Assembly (NCBI GenBank): GCA_028706745.1
Contig: JAQTVM010000003.1
Location: forward strand, 1-64,000
Direction: 5' to 3'
DNA from: Candidatus Nanoarchaeia archaeon
GTDB lineage: Archaea; Nanobdellota; Nanobdellia; SCGC-AAA011-G17; GW2011-AR17
Length of the DNA: 64,000 nt
The position numbers and the translations under genes were made by a program. The notes under the pieces are model-generated. The model was not told the DNA's origin and ran no database searches. It saw nothing but the letters and a program-made list of their open reading frames with translations. Positions 13,532-23,082 of the stretch are shown one piece after another (the stretch's first letter is position 1; each line of letters begins with the position of its first letter).

Positions 13532-14890
13532 TTACCCCCCTTGTTTATTTACTTCCCAATGCCCGCCCCTGTCAGGGCCGATGCGCTTTAAGACGCCTTT
13601 TTCTTTTAATTTTTTCAATTGTTTTTGCACTGCCGAAGGATTTATATCCAATAAATCAGATAATTCAGCACGGCTTATCTTTTGATTTTGTGTGATTAAA
13701 TCAACTATCTGTTTTTCTCTTTCTGACCACTTTTCTGACCACTTTTCTGACCACTTTTCTTCCGAACTTGTATCAGGAGTAGCCTCAGGCTTGTAAAACA
13801 CAGATGTAAAGAAGCCGTCTGTGTTAAAAACAGGCTCTTTCAAACCGGCTTCCCTCATAGCATCCTTCATGCGCCTGATTCCAGTGCCTGCCCTTTCAAC
13901 CTTGTCCATGCGGGAAAACAAATCTGCTATAAGCTCGTTCCTGCGTAATGACATTGAGCCAAACTTCTCCTTAGGAAAGCCCTTAACAAGCCCGCCCGGG
14001 CTTACAATCTCAACCCTGTCATCATAGAACTCAACGCTGATGTTTGTCCCGCGGAAGCTATAGTCCCTGTGGATTATTGCATTTGTAACAGCCTCGCGAA
14101 GCGCTTCAAGCGGAATTTCGTATATGTCCTTCCTGTCTATTCCTTTTATCTCTGTCCTTATCTTGAGCTGCTTTTTTATGAAGAACATTGCAGAATTAAA
14201 CTGCGTCAAAAGGTCATCCTTTACGTCCATCCTGTCAAATATGTGCAGCCTTTCAAGCCCCTTGAAAGCAATGAGAGTCATTTGGCATTGGGGGATATGC
14301 CTGTAAACATCCTTTGCAAAAAACAATGCAGAGGCATTCTTGAATTCTTTTGAGTCAGCCACTTTCAGGCTTTCCAGCAATTCTATGATGGGAATTTTGC
14401 CTGCCTTAATCCCGGATTCCTTAAGAAAGGCGGCCACTTTTTCTTTGGAAATGTCAGATATTGAGAAATCCTTTAGCCGCTTTTCTTCGTATGGAATTGA
14501 TTCATTTTCCGCAAACATGGCTCTTATTTCCTCATTGCTCATCTTCTGCGTCACTGCATCGAGCCTTATGAAGAATCCTGAGCTGCAGCTGTAAGGCTTT
14601 CTTTTGCCTTCAGGCACTTCAACGGCAATAATATTATCTGCTTGGGAAACAGAAGCCTCTATTGAAGGCTGGCAGTTCCTTGCCAAAGTAAGAATCTGCG
14701 CCTTAAGCCCGTTTGTGAGCTTTTCTCCGATTATTGCCTTGTCATCTCTTACGCCAATAAGGATTGTGCCTCCTCTTGAATTTGAAAAAGCAACAATATC
14801 CTGGTCTATCTTCGGGCTGTATTTCTCCTTGAATTCTATAACCAGCCCTTCGCCTTCAGCTATCAGCAGATTGACTTCTTTCCTGTCCAT
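13532..14890 (-). CDS. Schlafen/AlbA_2-HATPase_c_4-type putative transcriptional regulator (RecG-like annotation) with C-terminal wHTH
   Basis: EGLVIEFKEKYSPKIDQDIVAFSNSRGGTILIGVRDD; ALREAVTNAIIHRDYSFRGTNISVEFYDDRVEIVSPGGL; start ATG 14890. Confidence 0.85.
   Translation of the reverse strand: MDRKEVNLLIAEGEGLVIEFKEKYSPKIDQDIVAFSNSRGGTILIGVRDDKAIIGEKLTNGLKAQILTLARNCQPSIEASVSQADNIIAVEVPEGKRKPYSCSSGFFIRLDAVTQKMSNEEIRAMFAENESIPYEEKRLKDFSISDISKEKVAAFLKESGIKAGKIPIIELLESLKVADSKEFKNASALFFAKDVYRHIPQCQMTLIAFKGLERLHIFDRMDVKDDLLTQFNSAMFFIKKQLKIRTEIKGIDRKDIYEIPLEALREAVTNAIIHRDYSFRGTNISVEFYDDRVEIVSPGGLVKGFPKEKFGSMSLRRNELIADLFSRMDKVERAGTGIRRMKDAMREAGLKEPVFNTDGFFTSVFYKPEATPDTSSEEKWSEKWSEKWSEREKQIVDLITQNQKISRAELSDLLDINPSAVQKQLKKLKEKGVLKRIGPDRGGHWEVNKQGG
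13721..13760 (-). repeat. 12-bp perfect tandem repeat (TTCTGACCACTT, ~3.3 copies) encoding SEKWSEKWSEKW
   Basis: Direct reading. Confidence 0.95.
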
Positions 14891-14933
14891 GCAATTGCTG
14901 TTTCCTTTGCATATTAAAAGCCCTGCGCCTGCG

Positions 14934-15059
14934 GGTGGCAAGTGGTGGCGCATTCTTGCAAAGAATGGAACATTTTTCCGGAAACCCTATCACTTTTTCC
15001 GCTTTTCTCTCGGAGAGATACGCCCTGATTTTAAAGTTTTCAAAAAACCACTTGCCACC
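14934..15059. repeat. Inverted repeat pair GGTGGCAAGTGGT / ACCACTTGCCACC flanking ~100 bp
   Basis: 14934-14946 and 15047-15059 are perfect reverse complements (13 bp). Confidence 0.85.
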
Positions 15060-15111: not shown

Positions 15112-15585
15112 ATGAAAATGTATTACAAGAGCCACTTAAAGGCAATCATTGCAGTCATTGTCCTTGCTGCGCTTGACCAGCTTACGAAATACTTTTTTGC
15201 AGGCAAGACTTACATGGCATCCTGCATCGGAATCCAGTATGCCGAGAACACAGGCGCTGCTTTTGGAATACTTCAGGGCTGGAACCTGCCTTTAATCCTG
15301 ATAAGCATTGCAGTTCTTGCTTTCCTGGCTTATTTCTACTTCAAGGAAAGGCATAAGCTTGACAAGACTTACCGAGCAAAAGCGAAGGGAAGTTTCGAAC
15401 GCAGTGAGAAAACAGCTTTTATTTTGATATTTGCAGGAACATTGGGGAATTTGATAGACAGGGTTATGCTTGGCTACGTGAGAGACTTCATAGCAATAGG
15501 AAGCTGGCCTAACTTCAATGTGGCGGATAGTTTGAATGTCGTTGGTGTGTTGATATTAGTGTATGTGTTGGTGAAGAGGAAGTAG
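15112..15585 (+). CDS. lspA: Lipoprotein signal peptidase (signal peptidase II)-like protein
   Basis: ALDQLTKYFF; YAENTGAAFGIL; AGTLGNLIDRVMLGYVRDFI; FNVADSLNVVGV. Confidence 0.9.
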   Translation: MKMYYKSHLKAIIAVIVLAALDQLTKYFFAGKTYMASCIGIQYAENTGAAFGILQGWNLPLILISIAVLAFLAYFYFKERHKLDKTYRAKAKGSFERSEKTAFILIFAGTLGNLIDRVMLGYVRDFIAIGSWPNFNVADSLNVVGVLILVYVLVKRK

Positions 15586-15628: not shown

Positions 15629-16276
15629 TTAGGATCTCGCAAGAGCCATCTCGCTTGTGCTTCTGAAAGGCGTTATATCGCTCATTTCCGCTATATTTTG
15701 ATATTTTGCGCAAATTTCCTGCATGTCTTTCCTTCCTTTCATGCCTGCGGCTTTTTCCATTTCGCATAAGATGTTGTATGCAACAAGGCTGTGGCTGAAC
15801 CCCTTGTAGCCATTTTTTGCAATGCATCTTTTGCACAGGCTGATAAGCCTTATTGCCGATTTCTTGCCTTCTCCCGAAATTAGCAGGAAGGCGCGCCTGA
15901 TTAAGGCATCAAATTCAGCCATGCTTGGCTCTGATACTGACTTCAGCATGCAGTAGCCTTTCCCGCTTGTTATTATCTCAAATCCGGGCAGGAAATCATT
16001 TATTGCCTGCTGGAGAGAATCCAGGCTGAAGTTTCCTGTCACCTTTATTTCATCATATCCCATCTGGTATGCCTTTACGAGCTTTTCATTCTCTTTTTCA
16101 TATTCCACAGATGCCATCTTTGATTCGGGTTTGAGGCTTGCGCTGACGATGACTTTTCCTATGTCCTCATTGACTTCTATTTCCTGCCCTTTTTCCAGCC
16201 CGTGCCTCTTAACCCAGCCTGCCGGAAGGCTTATGACGTAGGTGTTTCCGCCCATGAGCATTATGCTTCGTTTCAT
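15629..16276 (-). CDS. AbrB/SpoVT-type DNA-binding domain plus PhoU-like protein
   Basis: MKRSIMLMGGNTYVISLPAGWVKRHGLEKGQEIEV then helical domain. Confidence 0.75.
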   Translation of the reverse strand: MKRSIMLMGGNTYVISLPAGWVKRHGLEKGQEIEVNEDIGKVIVSASLKPESKMASVEYEKENEKLVKAYQMGYDEIKVTGNFSLDSLQQAINDFLPGFEIITSGKGYCMLKSVSEPSMAEFDALIRRAFLLISGEGKKSAIRLISLCKRCIAKNGYKGFSHSLVAYNILCEMEKAAGMKGRKDMQEICAKYQNIAEMSDITPFRSTSEMALARS

Positions 16277-16371
16277 TTGTATTTTCTCCCGAGGCGTGAG
16301 CCTCTAGATGTTATAGGGTAAATATAGAATACATATGATAAATGCTGCGTCTATAAAAATAAACTTTTAGT

Positions 16372-17346
16372 TTATTGCAATTCCCTTACTCTTTCTTCAA
16401 AGTCATAAAGGTTATTTACAACATAATCTTCTTTTAATTTTCCGCTTCTATTAATCAAAAAGCTGCGAATTCCAACTGAAGCAGGTATTGCATAATCGTG
16501 CTCATAATCATCTCCTACATGCACCATTTCTGAAGGCTTAATCCCCAAAAGGCGACAAACATTTTTATATACTTCTGCATCCTTTTTCATGCTTCCAAAA
16601 TCTGCAGGGGTTGAGAATGTATTTTCAAAATAAGTTCCTAATTTGTCGATTCCTATTTTTAAATTTAAAAATTTACTATCTGCATGGGAAAGGATTATTA
16701 ACACATAATCTTTTTGCAGAGATTTGATGACAGGTATGGCATCGCCATAATGTTTTACTTCATGCTTCATATCTTTTGAGATTTTATCCCACGACGCTGT
16801 TATACCAAAATGTTCCAGCCAAAAATCAGGATCGCGCCATTCGCTTACTTTTCCCCAAAGCCGCTTATATTCTTTTACAACATACTTATATGCCTCTTCA
16901 AATTCAATCTTTCTGTCTTTTGCAACAAGAAGCGGTATTTCATTATCCCAGAATTTATCATCGAAGTTATTGTCACTTAAGCATCCGTCAAGGTCAAATG
17001 AGACTACTTTTATTCTTCGCTGAGATTTGGCTTTTATCCCTTTTGATAATGTTTCTTTCTCAGCTTGTTCTTCCTGTATTTTTAGCTTATGTATGGCTTC
17101 TGAGAATGACTCCAGCTGGTTAAGCCACGATTTTGAAATTTTGTAATACTTGCCTTCCTGCTTTTCCAGCATATTTGCCTCTAACATTCCAGTAAGGGCT
17201 TTACAAACAGCCTGGTATGTATGGCTTGCGCCTTTCTTTTTTATTGCAAAATGCATCTCTTTTGCAGAAAGGTTTTCTTTTTGGCTTAAAGCAAATAAGA
17301 TTAGCGTCTTTAAATCCTTCTTGTCCGTTAAGCAGGGGATTAGCAT
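16372..17346 (-). CDS. Winged-helix domain fused to HAD-family hydrolase
   Basis: N-terminal wHTH (LILFALSQKENLSAKEMHFAIKKKGASHTYQAVCKALTGMLEANMLEKQEGKYYKIS); HAD motifs SFDLDGCLSD, ILSHAD, KKDAEVYKN, VGDDYEHDY. Confidence 0.85.
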   Translation of the reverse strand: MLIPCLTDKKDLKTLILFALSQKENLSAKEMHFAIKKKGASHTYQAVCKALTGMLEANMLEKQEGKYYKISKSWLNQLESFSEAIHKLKIQEEQAEKETLSKGIKAKSQRRIKVVSFDLDGCLSDNNFDDKFWDNEIPLLVAKDRKIEFEEAYKYVVKEYKRLWGKVSEWRDPDFWLEHFGITASWDKISKDMKHEVKHYGDAIPVIKSLQKDYVLIILSHADSKFLNLKIGIDKLGTYFENTFSTPADFGSMKKDAEVYKNVCRLLGIKPSEMVHVGDDYEHDYAIPASVGIRSFLINRSGKLKEDYVVNNLYDFEERVRELQ

Positions 17347-17347
17347 A

Positions 17348-17875
17348 TCAGAATCTCTTCTTAAGTTCCTTTATTTTTGCAAAAACTTCTTTATCGTGTT
17401 CCGCCATCTCTTCATCAGTGTTGAATAACAGAAAGTCCTCCACTTTTTCGTCAAACTTATATCCTGCAGTTGTTGCACTTATGCTTAGCTGTCCTATGCA
17501 TGTAAATAATTCTGCTGGTATTTGTCCCGCCTTAATTTCTTTTAGCATTTCCTCAGTTAATTGTAAAAATTGCAGTTCTATATTAGAAATTGGCTCTTTC
17601 TTATCTATTCTATCTTGCATTTCATCAAACTTTATCCAAAAAGGGCAAGCTGCTTCAAACATCTTGTATAATCCTTGAAAAAGGGTATTTACTGCCCATT
17701 TCTTTTCTCTTTCGGTTGATGCAAGCCCGCCATTAATGGCACTGCCTATTAATTGCAGTCTGCGCTTTAATTCATTTATATCTTTAGAATAGTATAGATA
17801 TTTTGCTATATTCTTGTCTATCTCTTCTTCAATAATCTTGAAATCTATATCCTTGCCCGATTCTTTTTTAGTCAT
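17348..17875 (-). CDS. Hypothetical helical protein, 175 aa
   Basis: 8-nt overlap with upstream gene, 1-nt gap to downstream gene. Confidence 0.55.
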   Translation of the reverse strand: MTKKESGKDIDFKIIEEEIDKNIAKYLYYSKDINELKRRLQLIGSAINGGLASTEREKKWAVNTLFQGLYKMFEAACPFWIKFDEMQDRIDKKEPISNIELQFLQLTEEMLKEIKAGQIPAELFTCIGQLSISATTAGYKFDEKVEDFLLFNTDEEMAEHDKEVFAKIKELKKRF

Positions 17876-18620
17876 TTTTCTCCCATGGCATTTTTAGCAG
17901 CGTAACCTTATTGCGATGATGCCTACCGAATGGCTCGAATGTTAATCTTGTTTCTTTGTTTTCTATATCTTCATATAGCTTAATTGTGACTTTATGTTCT
18001 TTGTTTACATTTATTATCTCTGTGCCTATTCCTAATCCTTGTCCCCTATAATTGAAATCTTCTATTTTCCATGAATCTCTACCTGCACTTCCCAAATTAC
18101 TCGGCGGGTTATAATGCCCGGTAGATGCAATGCCTGCCAATCCTCTTGTCTCTTTTAAGAAATCAGGCATTTCTAATTTGCAAGCCGAGCCAAGATTGCT
18201 TGGCACTTTGGGTGTTCCTAAATTATCCAGTGCTTTTGTAAGATAACTATTGTCTTCCTTCAGCTTGCCTAAGTCTAATGCCGGCAAATTAGCGGGTGCT
18301 ATATCAATCTCTATAGGCTTTATTGTAATCTCTACTTCCGCTGCTCTTGCCAAAGGTCCGCAAGGGTCTGAGCGCGGGCTTTCTGAATAGTTGCTGTCTC
18401 TGCAGCCCATATCGCAATGCCTGTCGAAGTCACTTCTTCCGCTTGAACCCAAGCTTGAGCCGCTGGGCTTAAATCCGCAGCTCCCAAATCCGCTTCCGCT
18501 TCCTCCACTAAATCCTCCGCCGCCGAAACCTGAGTAGAATTCTGTTGCGCTTTGACTTTTTATTTCAATATTTTCCTGTCTTGCTTCCTCTTTCCTAATT
18601 ATTTCATCAAGCTTTTCCAT
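17868..18620 (-). CDS. Gly/Ser-rich protein, 250 aa, with repeated SNLGSA motif
   Basis: GFGGGGFSGGSGSGFGSCGF; VPSNLGSACKLEMPDF and PPSNLGSAGRDSWKIEDF. Confidence 0.55.
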   Translation of the reverse strand: MEKLDEIIRKEEARQENIEIKSQSATEFYSGFGGGGFSGGSGSGFGSCGFKPSGSSLGSSGRSDFDRHCDMGCRDSNYSESPRSDPCGPLARAAEVEITIKPIEIDIAPANLPALDLGKLKEDNSYLTKALDNLGTPKVPSNLGSACKLEMPDFLKETRGLAGIASTGHYNPPSNLGSAGRDSWKIEDFNYRGQGLGIGTEIINVNKEHKVTIKLYEDIENKETRLTFEPFGRHHRNKVTLLKMPWEKND

Positions 18621-18623
18621 TTT

Positions 18624-19775
18624 TTATATGCCTCCATTGTTTTTTGTGTTTATATCATTATCTGTATAATGCTTTTTAAATCCTGCAAATTCTGCCGGAT
18701 AGAGCCGTATTAAATTTCTTAGTGTCAAAGGTTTTCTTCCCTGCTCAATTTCTCTTGCATTTGCAAGATAAGATTTATTATATCTCATTGCTGTTTTGTA
18801 TTCTTGTGTTTCAGTCCCATATTGCATTGCCAACTCTCTTGCTTTTTCTGCATGCTGCCTGTGGTAATTTGCAAATTCCAATGTAGGTTCAGCAGATAAT
18901 ATTCTGGATTTTGTTTGTTTTAGATAATCCTCGTCTCCGCAGACAAAATCTCCTGTAAATAAAGGGTCTGTAATGGATATATCCTGTTTTGAAACTAAAT
19001 TTTCAAAAGATTCTGGACTTATGCCATATATATCCAGCCAGCCAAAATGAATACAAGGAATAGTATTTGATACAATTAGCATGTCGATATCTGAATAAGG
19101 CTTTCTTGAGCCGTAAACCATGGCAAATGCAATATCCTTAAACTTATTAGCAAATATTTTACTGATTATCTCTGTAAGTATTTGGCTATTATAATGCTTA
19201 GGCATGCCTGTACTAAACATTAATGCATGTTCTCCGTACTCATTGCTATAATCAATAAATCTCTTGCAAAGCACTTTTTGTTCTGCTGAAAGCATGCCAA
19301 ATTTTTGCTTTAATTGCCTGTTTGTATCTGTTAATTCTGAAAGGTAACATTCCATCCACATGGCAAACCCCTCATATTCGGGTGTTATTCTTTGTTTAAG
19401 TGCTTGAATTGCCTTATGTTTTGGGTTTTGCTTCCTGAATTCTTTTGCCTTTTCTGCGCTATTTAATCCTGCTTTTATCTCTTCACCCATCAATTCTATT
19501 TCTAGGCTATGCAAGGCTCTGCCTGGAGAAGAATGTTCAGTATACATGCTGTGCCCAAAATATTCATGGAACAGGTTTTGAATAAAAAAATTGCTGCTTG
19601 CCTTTAAATGCGAAGATAAATCCCTTGTTAGAAATACGCCTTCTTTTTCTTCGATACCCCTGTTTCTGCAGAAATTTTGCCATTCTGCATCGCCATATAT
19701 TTGGATAGTGGACTTAATTGGCATAAAACCAAATGTATCAGAAAAATGCTTGCTGATTTCTTCAGTTATTGTCAT
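18624..19775 (-). CDS. HEXXGH zincin-like domain fused to a nucleotidyltransferase-like domain
   Basis: NLFHEYFGHSMYTEH...MGEEIKAG...PEYEGFAMWMECY; FAMVYGSRKPYSDIDMLIVSN. Confidence 0.6.
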   Translation of the reverse strand: MTITEEISKHFSDTFGFMPIKSTIQIYGDAEWQNFCRNRGIEEKEGVFLTRDLSSHLKASSNFFIQNLFHEYFGHSMYTEHSSPGRALHSLEIELMGEEIKAGLNSAEKAKEFRKQNPKHKAIQALKQRITPEYEGFAMWMECYLSELTDTNRQLKQKFGMLSAEQKVLCKRFIDYSNEYGEHALMFSTGMPKHYNSQILTEIISKIFANKFKDIAFAMVYGSRKPYSDIDMLIVSNTIPCIHFGWLDIYGISPESFENLVSKQDISITDPLFTGDFVCGDEDYLKQTKSRILSAEPTLEFANYHRQHAEKARELAMQYGTETQEYKTAMRYNKSYLANAREIEQGRKPLTLRNLIRLYPAEFAGFKKHYTDNDINTKNNGGI

Positions 19776-19840
19776 TTTTACCCCCTAAACCTTGATTTTT
19801 AAGGGCTGTGCCACTATATAAACCTTTCTATTTTTAACCA

Positions 19841-20008
19841 CTAGAAAGTGTATAAATACCTCTTTCTCCAATAAATCTCTTCTTCAACCCACTCTTCAAA
19901 TTTTTCAATGCTTGTAATTTCAAAGTTAGGGTCTTCAATGGAGTCTTGCAGATAAACTTTGTAATTTCGTTTCATATCCTCTAGTTCGTCTGCATTAAGC
20001 TCTTTCAT
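19841..20008 (-). pseudogene. Possible truncated gene remnant or 55-aa ORF (MKELNADELEDMKRNYKVYLQDSIEDPNFEITSIEKFEEWVEEEIYWRKRYLYTF)
   Basis: Protein-like sequence also continues upstream of the ATG (CLSDENLICLDSAWTFG) to an in-frame stop. Confidence 0.35.
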
Positions 20009-20157
20009 TCCAAAAGTCCAGGCGGAATCCAGGCATATAAGGTTTTCGTCGGATAGGCACGATTGAACTTCCTAAAATAATGAATTATGGCGCTAGTCTT
20101 TAAGTCATGTTGCTACATTCCGCAGGATTTATAAAAAGAGAATAGACTATAAGAATA

Positions 20158-20589
20158 ATGGATGTACTCACAAAATCTCAACGTTCAAAATGCATGAGTT
20201 CGATAAAATCAAAAAATAGCAACATTGAAAGGATATTGACAAAAGCGTTAAAGAAAAAAGGATTGCAGTTCAAAAAGAATTATTCAAAAATAATAGGCAA
20301 ACCGGATATTGCATTTCCTAAAGAAAAAATCGCCGTTTTCTGCGACAGCGAATTTTGGCACGGATATAAATGGGCTAAAAAGAAAAAAGAGATTAAATCA
20401 AATAAAAGATTTTGGCATGCTAAAATTGAAAGGAATATAAAAAGAGATAAACAAGTAAACAGAAAATTAAAAAATCAAGGGTGGCTTGTAATTCGCTTTT
20501 GGGGCCAAAAAATCGGAAAGAATTCCGGCGAATGCGTAAAAATGATTGATACTGCCGTAAAAAAACGCAAAAATCTACACAATATATAA
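20158..20589 (+). CDS. vsr: Very-short-patch-repair (Vsr)-like DNA mismatch endonuclease
   Basis: MDVLTKSQRSKCMSSIKSKNSNIERILTKALKKKGLQFKKN; KPDIAFPKEKIAVFCDSEFWHGY; RDKQVNRKLKNQGWLVIRFWGQ. Confidence 0.88.
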   Translation: MDVLTKSQRSKCMSSIKSKNSNIERILTKALKKKGLQFKKNYSKIIGKPDIAFPKEKIAVFCDSEFWHGYKWAKKKKEIKSNKRFWHAKIERNIKRDKQVNRKLKNQGWLVIRFWGQKIGKNSGECVKMIDTAVKKRKNLHNI

Positions 20590-20640
20590 TTTCTATACCA
20601 AAGATTTAAATAAGGCCAAAGATTAAATCCTTTAGGTGAG

Positions 20641-21678
20641 ATGATGGCAAAAGAGGCGCATAAGAGTAATTCATTTGACAATAAAAAAGACGGCAAATTT
20701 ACATTTATAGATTTATTTGCGGGAATAGGCGGAATGCGCATTGCTTTTCAAAATTTAAAAGGAAATTGTGTATTCAGCTCGGAATGGGATAAGTTCTCGC
20801 AAAAAACTTATCAGGCCAATTTTGGAGAAATACCTGAAGGAGATATAACAAAAATAGATGCGAAGAATATCCCCTCTCATGATGTTCTCGTAGCGGGATT
20901 TCCATGCCAAGCATTTTCAATAGCAGGAAGACGTGCGGGTTTTGAAGATACCAGGGGCACCTTATTTTTTGATGTTGCAAGAATCATAAAAGAAAAGCAA
21001 CCAAAAGCGTTTTTATTGGAAAATGTAAAAGGTCTTAAAAATCATAAGGGGGGCAAAACGCTTAATACTATTCTCAATGTATTAAGAAATGATTTAGGCT
21101 ATTATGTTCCCGAGCCGCAAATTTTAAATGCCCTGAATTTTGGACTTCCACAGAATAGGGAGCGGATAGTAATAGTAGGTTTTAGAAAAGACCTGAAAAT
21201 TAATGAGTTTACATATCCTGCCACGTTAAATGAACATAAGGTATTTGCGGATGTAAAAGAAACTAAGCCAGTTACAGCCAGATATTATCTCTCGACAACT
21301 TATCTTAAATGCTTGAAGCAACATAAAAAGAGACATGCATCTAAAGGTAACGGTTTTGGTTATGAGATTATACCCGATAATAAACATACAAATGCAATTG
21401 TTGTAGGCGGAATGGGAAAAGAAAGAAATCTCATTATAGATCCGAGATTGAAAGATTTTACACCGGAAACAAAGATACAAGGCAAAGTAAACAGGGAAGG
21501 AATACGAAGAATGACTCCGCGCGAATGGGCTCGTTTGCAGGGATTTCCTGAAAAATTCCAAATACCAGTTTCCAATGCACAAGCTTATAAGCAATTCGGG
21601 AATTCTGTACCCATTAATATGGTGGAAGCCGTAGGAAATGAAATATTGAGGCATTTAAATGACAATAAAAGGCAATAA
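20641..21678 (+). CDS. DNA (cytosine-5)-methyltransferase
   Basis: FIDLFAGIGGMRIAFQ; GFPCQAFSIAGRRAGFEDTRGTLFF; ENVKGL; PQNRERIVIVGF; ARLQGFPEKF; YKQFGNSVPINM. Confidence 0.95.
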   Translation: MMAKEAHKSNSFDNKKDGKFTFIDLFAGIGGMRIAFQNLKGNCVFSSEWDKFSQKTYQANFGEIPEGDITKIDAKNIPSHDVLVAGFPCQAFSIAGRRAGFEDTRGTLFFDVARIIKEKQPKAFLLENVKGLKNHKGGKTLNTILNVLRNDLGYYVPEPQILNALNFGLPQNRERIVIVGFRKDLKINEFTYPATLNEHKVFADVKETKPVTARYYLSTTYLKCLKQHKKRHASKGNGFGYEIIPDNKHTNAIVVGGMGKERNLIIDPRLKDFTPETKIQGKVNREGIRRMTPREWARLQGFPEKFQIPVSNAQAYKQFGNSVPINMVEAVGNEILRHLNDNKRQ

Positions 21679-22732
21679 AGGCGAATGGACTGAGATTTAT
21701 GTTCTTCTCAAATTACTTGCTGACGGCAAATTGTACGCTGGAGATGAAAATCTAGGTATAATCTCAGATATTTATTCTAAAGTTTTAAGGATTGACAGAA
21801 AAGAAAAAGAAGGTGAGTATCATTATTTAAGAAATGATAAAATAAGTATCTTGGACTCAAATGGCAAAGTTTTAGTAGAACTCGATGCAACAGTATTTAA
21901 TGAAAATGCAAAAAAGCTGTTAAAAGAAATTAAAGAAGCTAAAGGGCCTTCATTTTCTGTTTCAGATGTGGAAGAGTTTATGCATATCATAAAATGTAAA
22001 AGTCTAAAAGCAAAATCTACGCAGAAATCAGATATTACTATCCAAATCAGCGAACCATCTAATCCTTTAAAAGTTACGCTTAAATTCAGCATAAAATCTC
22101 AATTGGGCCGAGCTTCAACTTTACTTAACCCGGGTAAAACTACTAACTTTGTATACAAGATTGATGCAAAAAGTATTAATAAAGATGAATTAAAATCTAT
22201 AGATCTTCAGACAAATCTAAAAAATAAAATAAAATCCCTTGAAATAAAAGGTTATAATCTGATATATGATCATATTGAAAGTGAGAATTTTCATTCAAAT
22301 CTTCGGTTAATAGAGTCTACTCTACCCGAGATGGTGGCTGCCGCGTTAGTAAAATTTTATGGCGGTAAATTTAAGACGCTTAAAGAATTAACTGATGAAT
22401 TGGAAAGAATAAATCCTTTGGGCTATTCAAAAAGCGGAGGACAGAAGCCCTATGAGCATAAAATGAAACAATTACTCTATGCCGCCGCACTAGGTATGAC
22501 TCCCGGAAAAATCTGGGAAGGAGAGTTCGAAGCCTTAGGGGGATATATTTTAGTAAATAAAAAAGGAGAGGTATTAGGTTATACTACACATAATCAGAAT
22601 AAGTTTATGGACTATCTTTTAAATAATACCAAATTTGAAATTGCAAGCAGAAGCAGATATAAGTTTGGTAAAATTTATAGCGAAAATGGGCAATATTATA
22701 CCAAATTAAACTTACAGATAAGATTTTTGTGA
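21659..22732 (+). CDS. Type II restriction endonuclease, probable HpaII family (CCGG)
   Basis: KGNKGEWTEIYVLLKLLADGKLYAGDENL start; start codon overlaps the end of the C5-MTase gene; specificity is inferred. Confidence 0.7.
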   Translation: MTIKGNKGEWTEIYVLLKLLADGKLYAGDENLGIISDIYSKVLRIDRKEKEGEYHYLRNDKISILDSNGKVLVELDATVFNENAKKLLKEIKEAKGPSFSVSDVEEFMHIIKCKSLKAKSTQKSDITIQISEPSNPLKVTLKFSIKSQLGRASTLLNPGKTTNFVYKIDAKSINKDELKSIDLQTNLKNKIKSLEIKGYNLIYDHIESENFHSNLRLIESTLPEMVAAALVKFYGGKFKTLKELTDELERINPLGYSKSGGQKPYEHKMKQLLYAAALGMTPGKIWEGEFEALGGYILVNKKGEVLGYTTHNQNKFMDYLLNNTKFEIASRSRYKFGKIYSENGQYYTKLNLQIRFL

Positions 22733-22764
22733 ATATTTTTGCTCAACCAAAGAAAGCCACTATT

Positions 22765-23082
22765 CTACGCTGGAGGCTCGCCTTTTCTTTCTTTATTCTC
22801 CCACTCCCCGCACGCCCTGTCCTCATCCAAGGCATCTTCCACGTGCACCAAAAACTCATTATTAGAAAGAAACTCAATAGCTTTTGCCTTAAACTTTGCA
22901 GCTTCTGTGTTATTAACATTCCAAGAAGTATCATCAAACCTTCTGCCATCAACGCTAAGCGAAGAAAGGATAATATTCACATTAGTTACGCAGGAGTACC
23001 TGCCTGACTTCCTGCATATTGCCTTGATAAAAAAGCCTTTATCTGCGCATATTTCAAAATCATACCTTGAACCTTTAATCAT
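22765..23082 (-). CDS. Hypothetical protein, 105 aa
   Basis: ORF with protein-like composition. Confidence 0.45.
   Translation of the reverse strand: MIKGSRYDFEICADKGFFIKAICRKSGRYSCVTNVNIILSSLSVDGRRFDDTSWNVNNTEAAKFKAKAIEFLSNNEFLVHVEDALDEDRACGEWENKERKGEPPA

Follow-up and report, generated by a model that had tools for sequence, protein, structure and literature searches.

The window, a 64,000-nucleotide stretch of the 1.24 Mb draft genome of a DPANN archaeon, carries four tightly packed minus-strand genes, which raise the question of whether all four work together and in what kind of process. A preliminary description made from the sequence alone had read them as encoding a zincin-nucleotidyltransferase, two unrecognisable proteins and a winged-helix HAD phosphatase, and had proposed a modification/demodification or defence-type system. 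Re-reading the window bears out the four ORFs, which we call Z, G, H and P, exactly as described: Z and G are separated by 3 nt, G and H overlap by 8 nt, and P lies 1 nt from H. The same is true of the local AT-richness (GC 0.34-0.40 over 16-23 kb, against ~0.43 around it) and of the adjacent restriction-modification (R-M) system, which is of HpaII type with Vsr. What recurs in other genomes is Z, G and H, and we consider it probable, if well short of certain, that these three form a DPANN-specific, leader-directed polymorphic toxin-immunity cassette in which Z is a dedicated maturation enzyme, with the HAD gene a passenger.

Z (positions 18624 to 19775, minus strand; 383 aa) has two domains in its AlphaFold2 model (pLDDT 93.7): a HExxGH metallopeptidase-like half (residues 1-190) and a HalB-like nucleotidyltransferase (about residues 195-366). 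The HEYFGH codons (residues 70-75; 19551 to 19568, minus strand) specify a putative metal site on helix 64-81 of the model, and the EGFAMWME codons (residues 135-142; 19350 to 19373, minus strand) a putative third metal ligand. H70, E71, G74, H75, E80 and E135 are invariant among 31 aligned sequences, and A138, W140 and E142 are kept in at least 90% of them. The nucleotidyltransferase signature GSRKPYSDID (residues 222-231; 19083 to 19112, minus strand) is likewise conserved in the 31 sequences; S223, D229 and the third aspartate, D248 (19032-19034, minus strand), are invariant, and D231 is present in at least 90%. The Pfam Polbeta match to Z is weak (E 0.007), and this half most resembles HalB of the Hailong system (profile E 4e-4; Foldseek E 2.4e-5), with which it shares the fold, a C-terminal helical region and the catalytic Asp triad. 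The motifs in both halves and the HalB match uphold the predicted zincin and nucleotidyltransferase assignments.

The zincin half is harder to place. Its invariant H70, E71, H75 and E135 make up a gluzincin-type HExxxH and downstream Glu motif, and an HExxxH followed by Glu-Gly is also the order in DPP III (M49) and TMCP/KIAA0895L (PMC10499314). No peptidase family was matched by profile, and the best peptidase-type match in a fold search is a weak one to selecase (E 2.9). With neither a profile nor a fold match, homology to M49 or TMCP was set aside, and the shared order, in which the third ligand of Z is putative, appears to be a motif resemblance only. Z is a candidate for a new family of metallopeptidases, here joined to a HalB-like nucleotidyltransferase.

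Homologues of Z are patchily distributed. They occur in 19 of 188 relatives searched, and of 377 genomes from the phylum about 28 have strong profile matches; these genomes are all drafts, many with short contigs, and the counts refer to sampled species. When 85,462 species genomes were scanned for the HExxGH-type pattern, 28 Z loci were returned, all DPANN by record titles and genome groups, although a motif pattern could miss divergent relatives outside DPANN. Relatives that bear names belong to Woese-, Pace-, Parv- and other Nanoarchaeota. The possibility that Z comes from, or is carried by, viruses was rejected: two viral-contig scans gave no relative, no plasmid matched, and the best matches of Z to viral folds are nucleotidyltransferases. 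Truncated Z genes occur at L115, L116, L118, L114 and L043 (L numbers denote loci), several of them still beside G or H, and are either decaying copies, partial versions of Z or the products of contig ends.

A G protein adjoins Z in 28 of 35 Z loci (the window and 27 others). G proteins consist of a conserved leader of ~40 residues, a variable linker that is often Gly- or Pro-rich, and a locus-specific C-terminal domain. The leader has the consensus xQxLEQ...Y.P...R..Y...DLExLSAxxLYxG, and its profile derives from the first locus set, with 27 distinct G proteins of which 26 were aligned. At E<1e-9 it is found in 16 of the 377 genomes, and in 16/16 a Z gene or Z remnant lies no more than 1.2 kb away (hypergeometric about 5e-21, with about 28 genomes carrying Z). 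Seven Z genes are without a clear G neighbour, among them a paralogue, 43% identical, that lies elsewhere in the window's own genome. A subset of the Z genes without a clear leader-type G, again including this paralogue, adjoins an Lrp/AsnC-type regulator (L027:8965-10110, L047, L048, L072, L039 and L041), and Z may also serve in regulation.

The C-terminal ends of G are as varied as the leader is conserved. When typed by single-linkage similarity, as was also done for H, the C-terminal 60 residues from 37 G proteins give four recurrent types (14, 7, 6 and 5 members), a pair comprising the window's G and that of L042, and three singletons. Polar residues (His/Lys/Arg/Asp) are conserved in these domains: HxTFKxDRYxN...GH occurs in 5/5 members of one type, while E, H, N and H are conserved in a second, and His and Tyr in a third. 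Such residues look catalytic. In the structural model of an S-type G the leader is disordered and residues 41-97 form a compact domain (pLDDT near 80); with a model of moderate confidence and no confident PDB fold match, we dropped the idea of a catalytic fold for this domain. Searches of Pfam, NCBIfam and PHROGs matched the C-terminal domains to no known toxin, and a PDB profile search with one G type gave no match. More broadly, the G domains and H families match no known toxin, immunity or secretion family, and the leader fits no known export family.

Each G gene is followed by a small H gene of matching type. The H genes comprise two superfamilies (H0 and H1) and two singletons, and at superfamily level the typed G-H pairs agree in 30/30 cases, G types with 14 and 7 pairs going with H0 and those with 4 and 5 going with H1. 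These cassettes are exchanged among Z loci. Along the Z tree, G types are distributed nearly at random (19 changes, against a mean of 21.9 for shuffled labels), and close Z relatives carry different G types (L066/L067 and L055/L057). Some loci have more than one copy: L031 contains three successive G-H pairs with near-identical leaders and different ends, and L037 and L067 have two G genes each. H also occurs as an orphan, in that a homologue of the window's H (8e-17) resides in L133, a stretch without Z or G.

The window's own G and H appear from their sequences to be divergent members of this family, with a weak leader match and better tail and H matches. G (17868 to 18620, minus strand; 250 aa) is a Gly-rich putative toxin precursor. 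Its leader-like part (MEKLDEIIRKEEARQENIEIKSQSATEFY; 18534 to 18620, minus strand) scores 6.8 bits, above 2000/2000 shuffles, with E=4.6 in the ORF-set search, where it is not significant. The putative C-terminal (toxin) domain (17868 to 18050, minus strand), which ends in LLKMPWEKND, resembles the G of L042 (E 5e-3). A PW[EKD][KD] tail is present in 5 of the 37 G proteins (window, L042, L054, L112 and L114) and in 0/748 other ORFs; it spans otherwise different C-terminal types and is possibly a sorting or recognition tag. We therefore assign the window's G to the family because of its position beside Z, its C-terminal match to L042 and its tail. H (17348 to 17875, minus strand; 175 aa), a helical putative immunity protein that overlaps G, is related to L031:2058-2393, within the G-H array (phmmer E 7e-6), and to the H of L070 (E 5e-4). 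That these middle proteins are unrecognisable holds for both in Pfam, NCBIfam and PADLOC and for G in PHROGs, but their families become visible by cross-genome comparison. Two other candidate identities were set aside: the match of the window's H to a HEPN model is no better than E 0.064, and a resemblance, spanning about 52 residues, of G to a GatE-like amidotransferase was judged to be chance (E about 0.002 per genome, with 188 genomes searched).

The cassette and the R-M system together occupy a variable island (15629 to 23082, no strand assigned), delimited by comparison with congeners and by its low GC. The flanking genes, a DUF7121 coiled-coil gene adjoining L1-L10-L12 ribosomal genes and, on the opposite side, lspA, are 7.5 kb apart in the window, versus 0.9-1.9 kb, with other genes between, in three congeneric genomes. 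In the closest congener (G001) the gap holds an ORF resembling a Dam-like adenine methylase (L173:9578-10567, read by eye), so the contents of this spot are variable. Genes for Vsr, a C5 methylase and an HpaII-like restriction enzyme (20158 to 22732, plus strand) are neighbours of the cassette within the island and lie outside the module.

A conserved leader with swappable ends, G-H pairing, tandem pairs and orphan H genes together amount to a polymorphic toxin-immunity architecture on a reduced scale, with a leader in place of a trafficking domain. Polymorphic toxin systems, which are rare in archaea (PMC3482391), share with Z-G-H a conserved N terminus with exchangeable C-terminal domains, a cognate downstream immunity gene, tandem pairs, orphan immunity-like genes and a link to peptidases (Zhang et al. 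2012, PMC3482391). Unlike the large trafficking proteins of those systems, G is about 100-250 aa long with a short leader, and Z-G-H differs further in its separate two-domain peptidase-nucleotidyltransferase, its restriction to DPANN and its lack of a known toxin or immunity domain. The composition had been thought undescribed, and we too found no Z+G+H cassette in the literature and family libraries searched; a survey of polymorphic toxins in archaea published in mBio in 2019, outside that search, may list such genes.

From this architecture we infer that G is toxic and that H, encoded by the next gene, is its cognate immunity protein. G would be a short toxin precursor made up of a disordered leader that Z recognises, a linker that varies and, at the C terminus, a small toxin domain that can be exchanged. 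The zincin-like half of Z would take off the leader near the LYxG border, which is the most economical role for a HExxGH enzyme tied to a leader, and the S-type model, with its disordered leader and folded residues 41-97, fits this view. A working precedent is TldD/E, an HExxxH metalloprotease that takes the N-terminal leader off the short toxin precursor of microcin B17 (PMC5810440), although no homology to Z was found. Z-G-H also differs from microcin B17 in that neither a modification synthetase nor an export pump was recognised, and in an immunity-like partner that is exchanged along with the toxin end. No recurrent transporter or secretion gene turned up among the neighbour families listed for the Z module. 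The nucleotidyltransferase half could place a mark on G or on H, or could produce a free nucleotide; its likeness to HalB favours a free nucleotide, and its likeness to minimal nucleotidyltransferases (MNT) favours a mark on G or H. In one version of the mechanism it would nucleotidylate G, or make an oligonucleotide, so that toxicity is gated until release.

Many DPANN archaea are believed to depend on other cells or to be attached to them, and to our knowledge almost nothing is known of their molecular weapons and kin-recognition tools. Z-G-H may be a weapon of these archaea against neighbours. A more specific version, in which a DPANN-specific weapon family relies on one bifunctional protease-nucleotidyltransferase to trim and nucleotidylate short exchangeable toxins, a nucleotide mark or signal gating their activity until they reach a host or competitor cell, is tentative, and we hold it to be rather doubtful in full. 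The family in any case offers small, expressible proteins for tests, and several candidate new toxin folds.

Two other readings of the same three genes start from the nucleotidyltransferase. Z-G-H might be a Hailong-like intracellular antiviral system, in which the nucleotidyltransferase half constantly makes a nucleotide signal that keeps an effector, G (or H), inactive until the zincin half cleaves G and thereby activates it on infection, the varied ends then reflecting an arms race with viruses and not with neighbours. The closest relative of the nucleotidyltransferase half and helical C terminus of Z is HalB by both profile and fold, and the island houses an R-M system at the spot that in congener G001 is taken by an ORF resembling a Dam-like methylase. 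However, Z differs from HalB in its fusion to a zincin-like domain and its toxin-like small partners, among which no HalA-like membrane effector was recognised (by family searches and the listed neighbour families, with no dedicated HalA model). PADLOC has no confident match for Z, G or H, and few defence genes were seen near other Z loci. Pairing with an immunity-like H and tandem arrays are also un-Hailong-like, as we know of neither as a feature of that system. We regard this reading as unlikely. Somewhat less likely still is a toxin-antitoxin system on the MNT-HEPN model, with a toxic H, G as its antitoxin, and AMPylation by the MNT-like half of Z keeping H silent. Z has an MNT-type signature within an operon of small, overlapping genes, and its fold weakly matches structure 7ae9, an AMPylated HEPN/MNT complex. 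Yet the nucleotidyltransferase of Z is part of a larger enzyme, and the invariant residues of the HEPN motif R-x4-6-H are absent from every H family. Most H alignments have no polar set comparable to that of the G domains, whose residues look catalytic. Two unrelated H superfamilies would both need to be toxins silenced by a single enzyme, and the conserved G leader would go unexplained.

There is also the original proposal, that all four genes constitute one modification/demodification system. P (16372 to 17346, minus strand; 324 aa) is co-directional with the others and only 1 nt from H, and its winged-helix and HAD domains are as first called (E 1e-15). HADs of other subfamilies lie near Z in 4/28 other loci, where about 4 HAD genes per genome would lead one to expect roughly 0.3-0.4; this excess is mild and post hoc, and positions and orientations vary. 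Against the proposal, homologues of P, one winged-helix-HAD fusion included, reside in unrelated neighbourhoods without Z, none was seen in the other Z loci read, and most Z loci have no HAD at all. A core role for the HAD protein was rejected on these grounds, and a single four-gene system is the least credible of the readings considered. Since its homologues are not near Z, P is probably a passenger. Co-occurrence therefore extends to Z, G and H, and what survives of the defence-type interpretation is a conflict-type role for these three, on account of their co-occurrence, pairing, exchange, variable island and patchiness; the toxin-immunity cassette is our preferred form of that role.

Two further genes of the window lie near the cassette. 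At 13532-14953 (minus strand), a protein with SLFN/AlbA_2, HATPase_c_4 and winged-helix domains matches pAgo-associated and CARF-type PADLOC models. At 15112-15585 (plus strand) is a bacterial-type lipoprotein signal peptidase II (Pfam Peptidase_A8, E 1.4e-28), here in an archaeon. Lgt (PF01790) is present in the window's genome and in 18/19 relatives, and absent from four archaeal control genomes; with Peptidase_A8, it points to a predicted lipoprotein pathway of bacterial type in this group of DPANN archaea.
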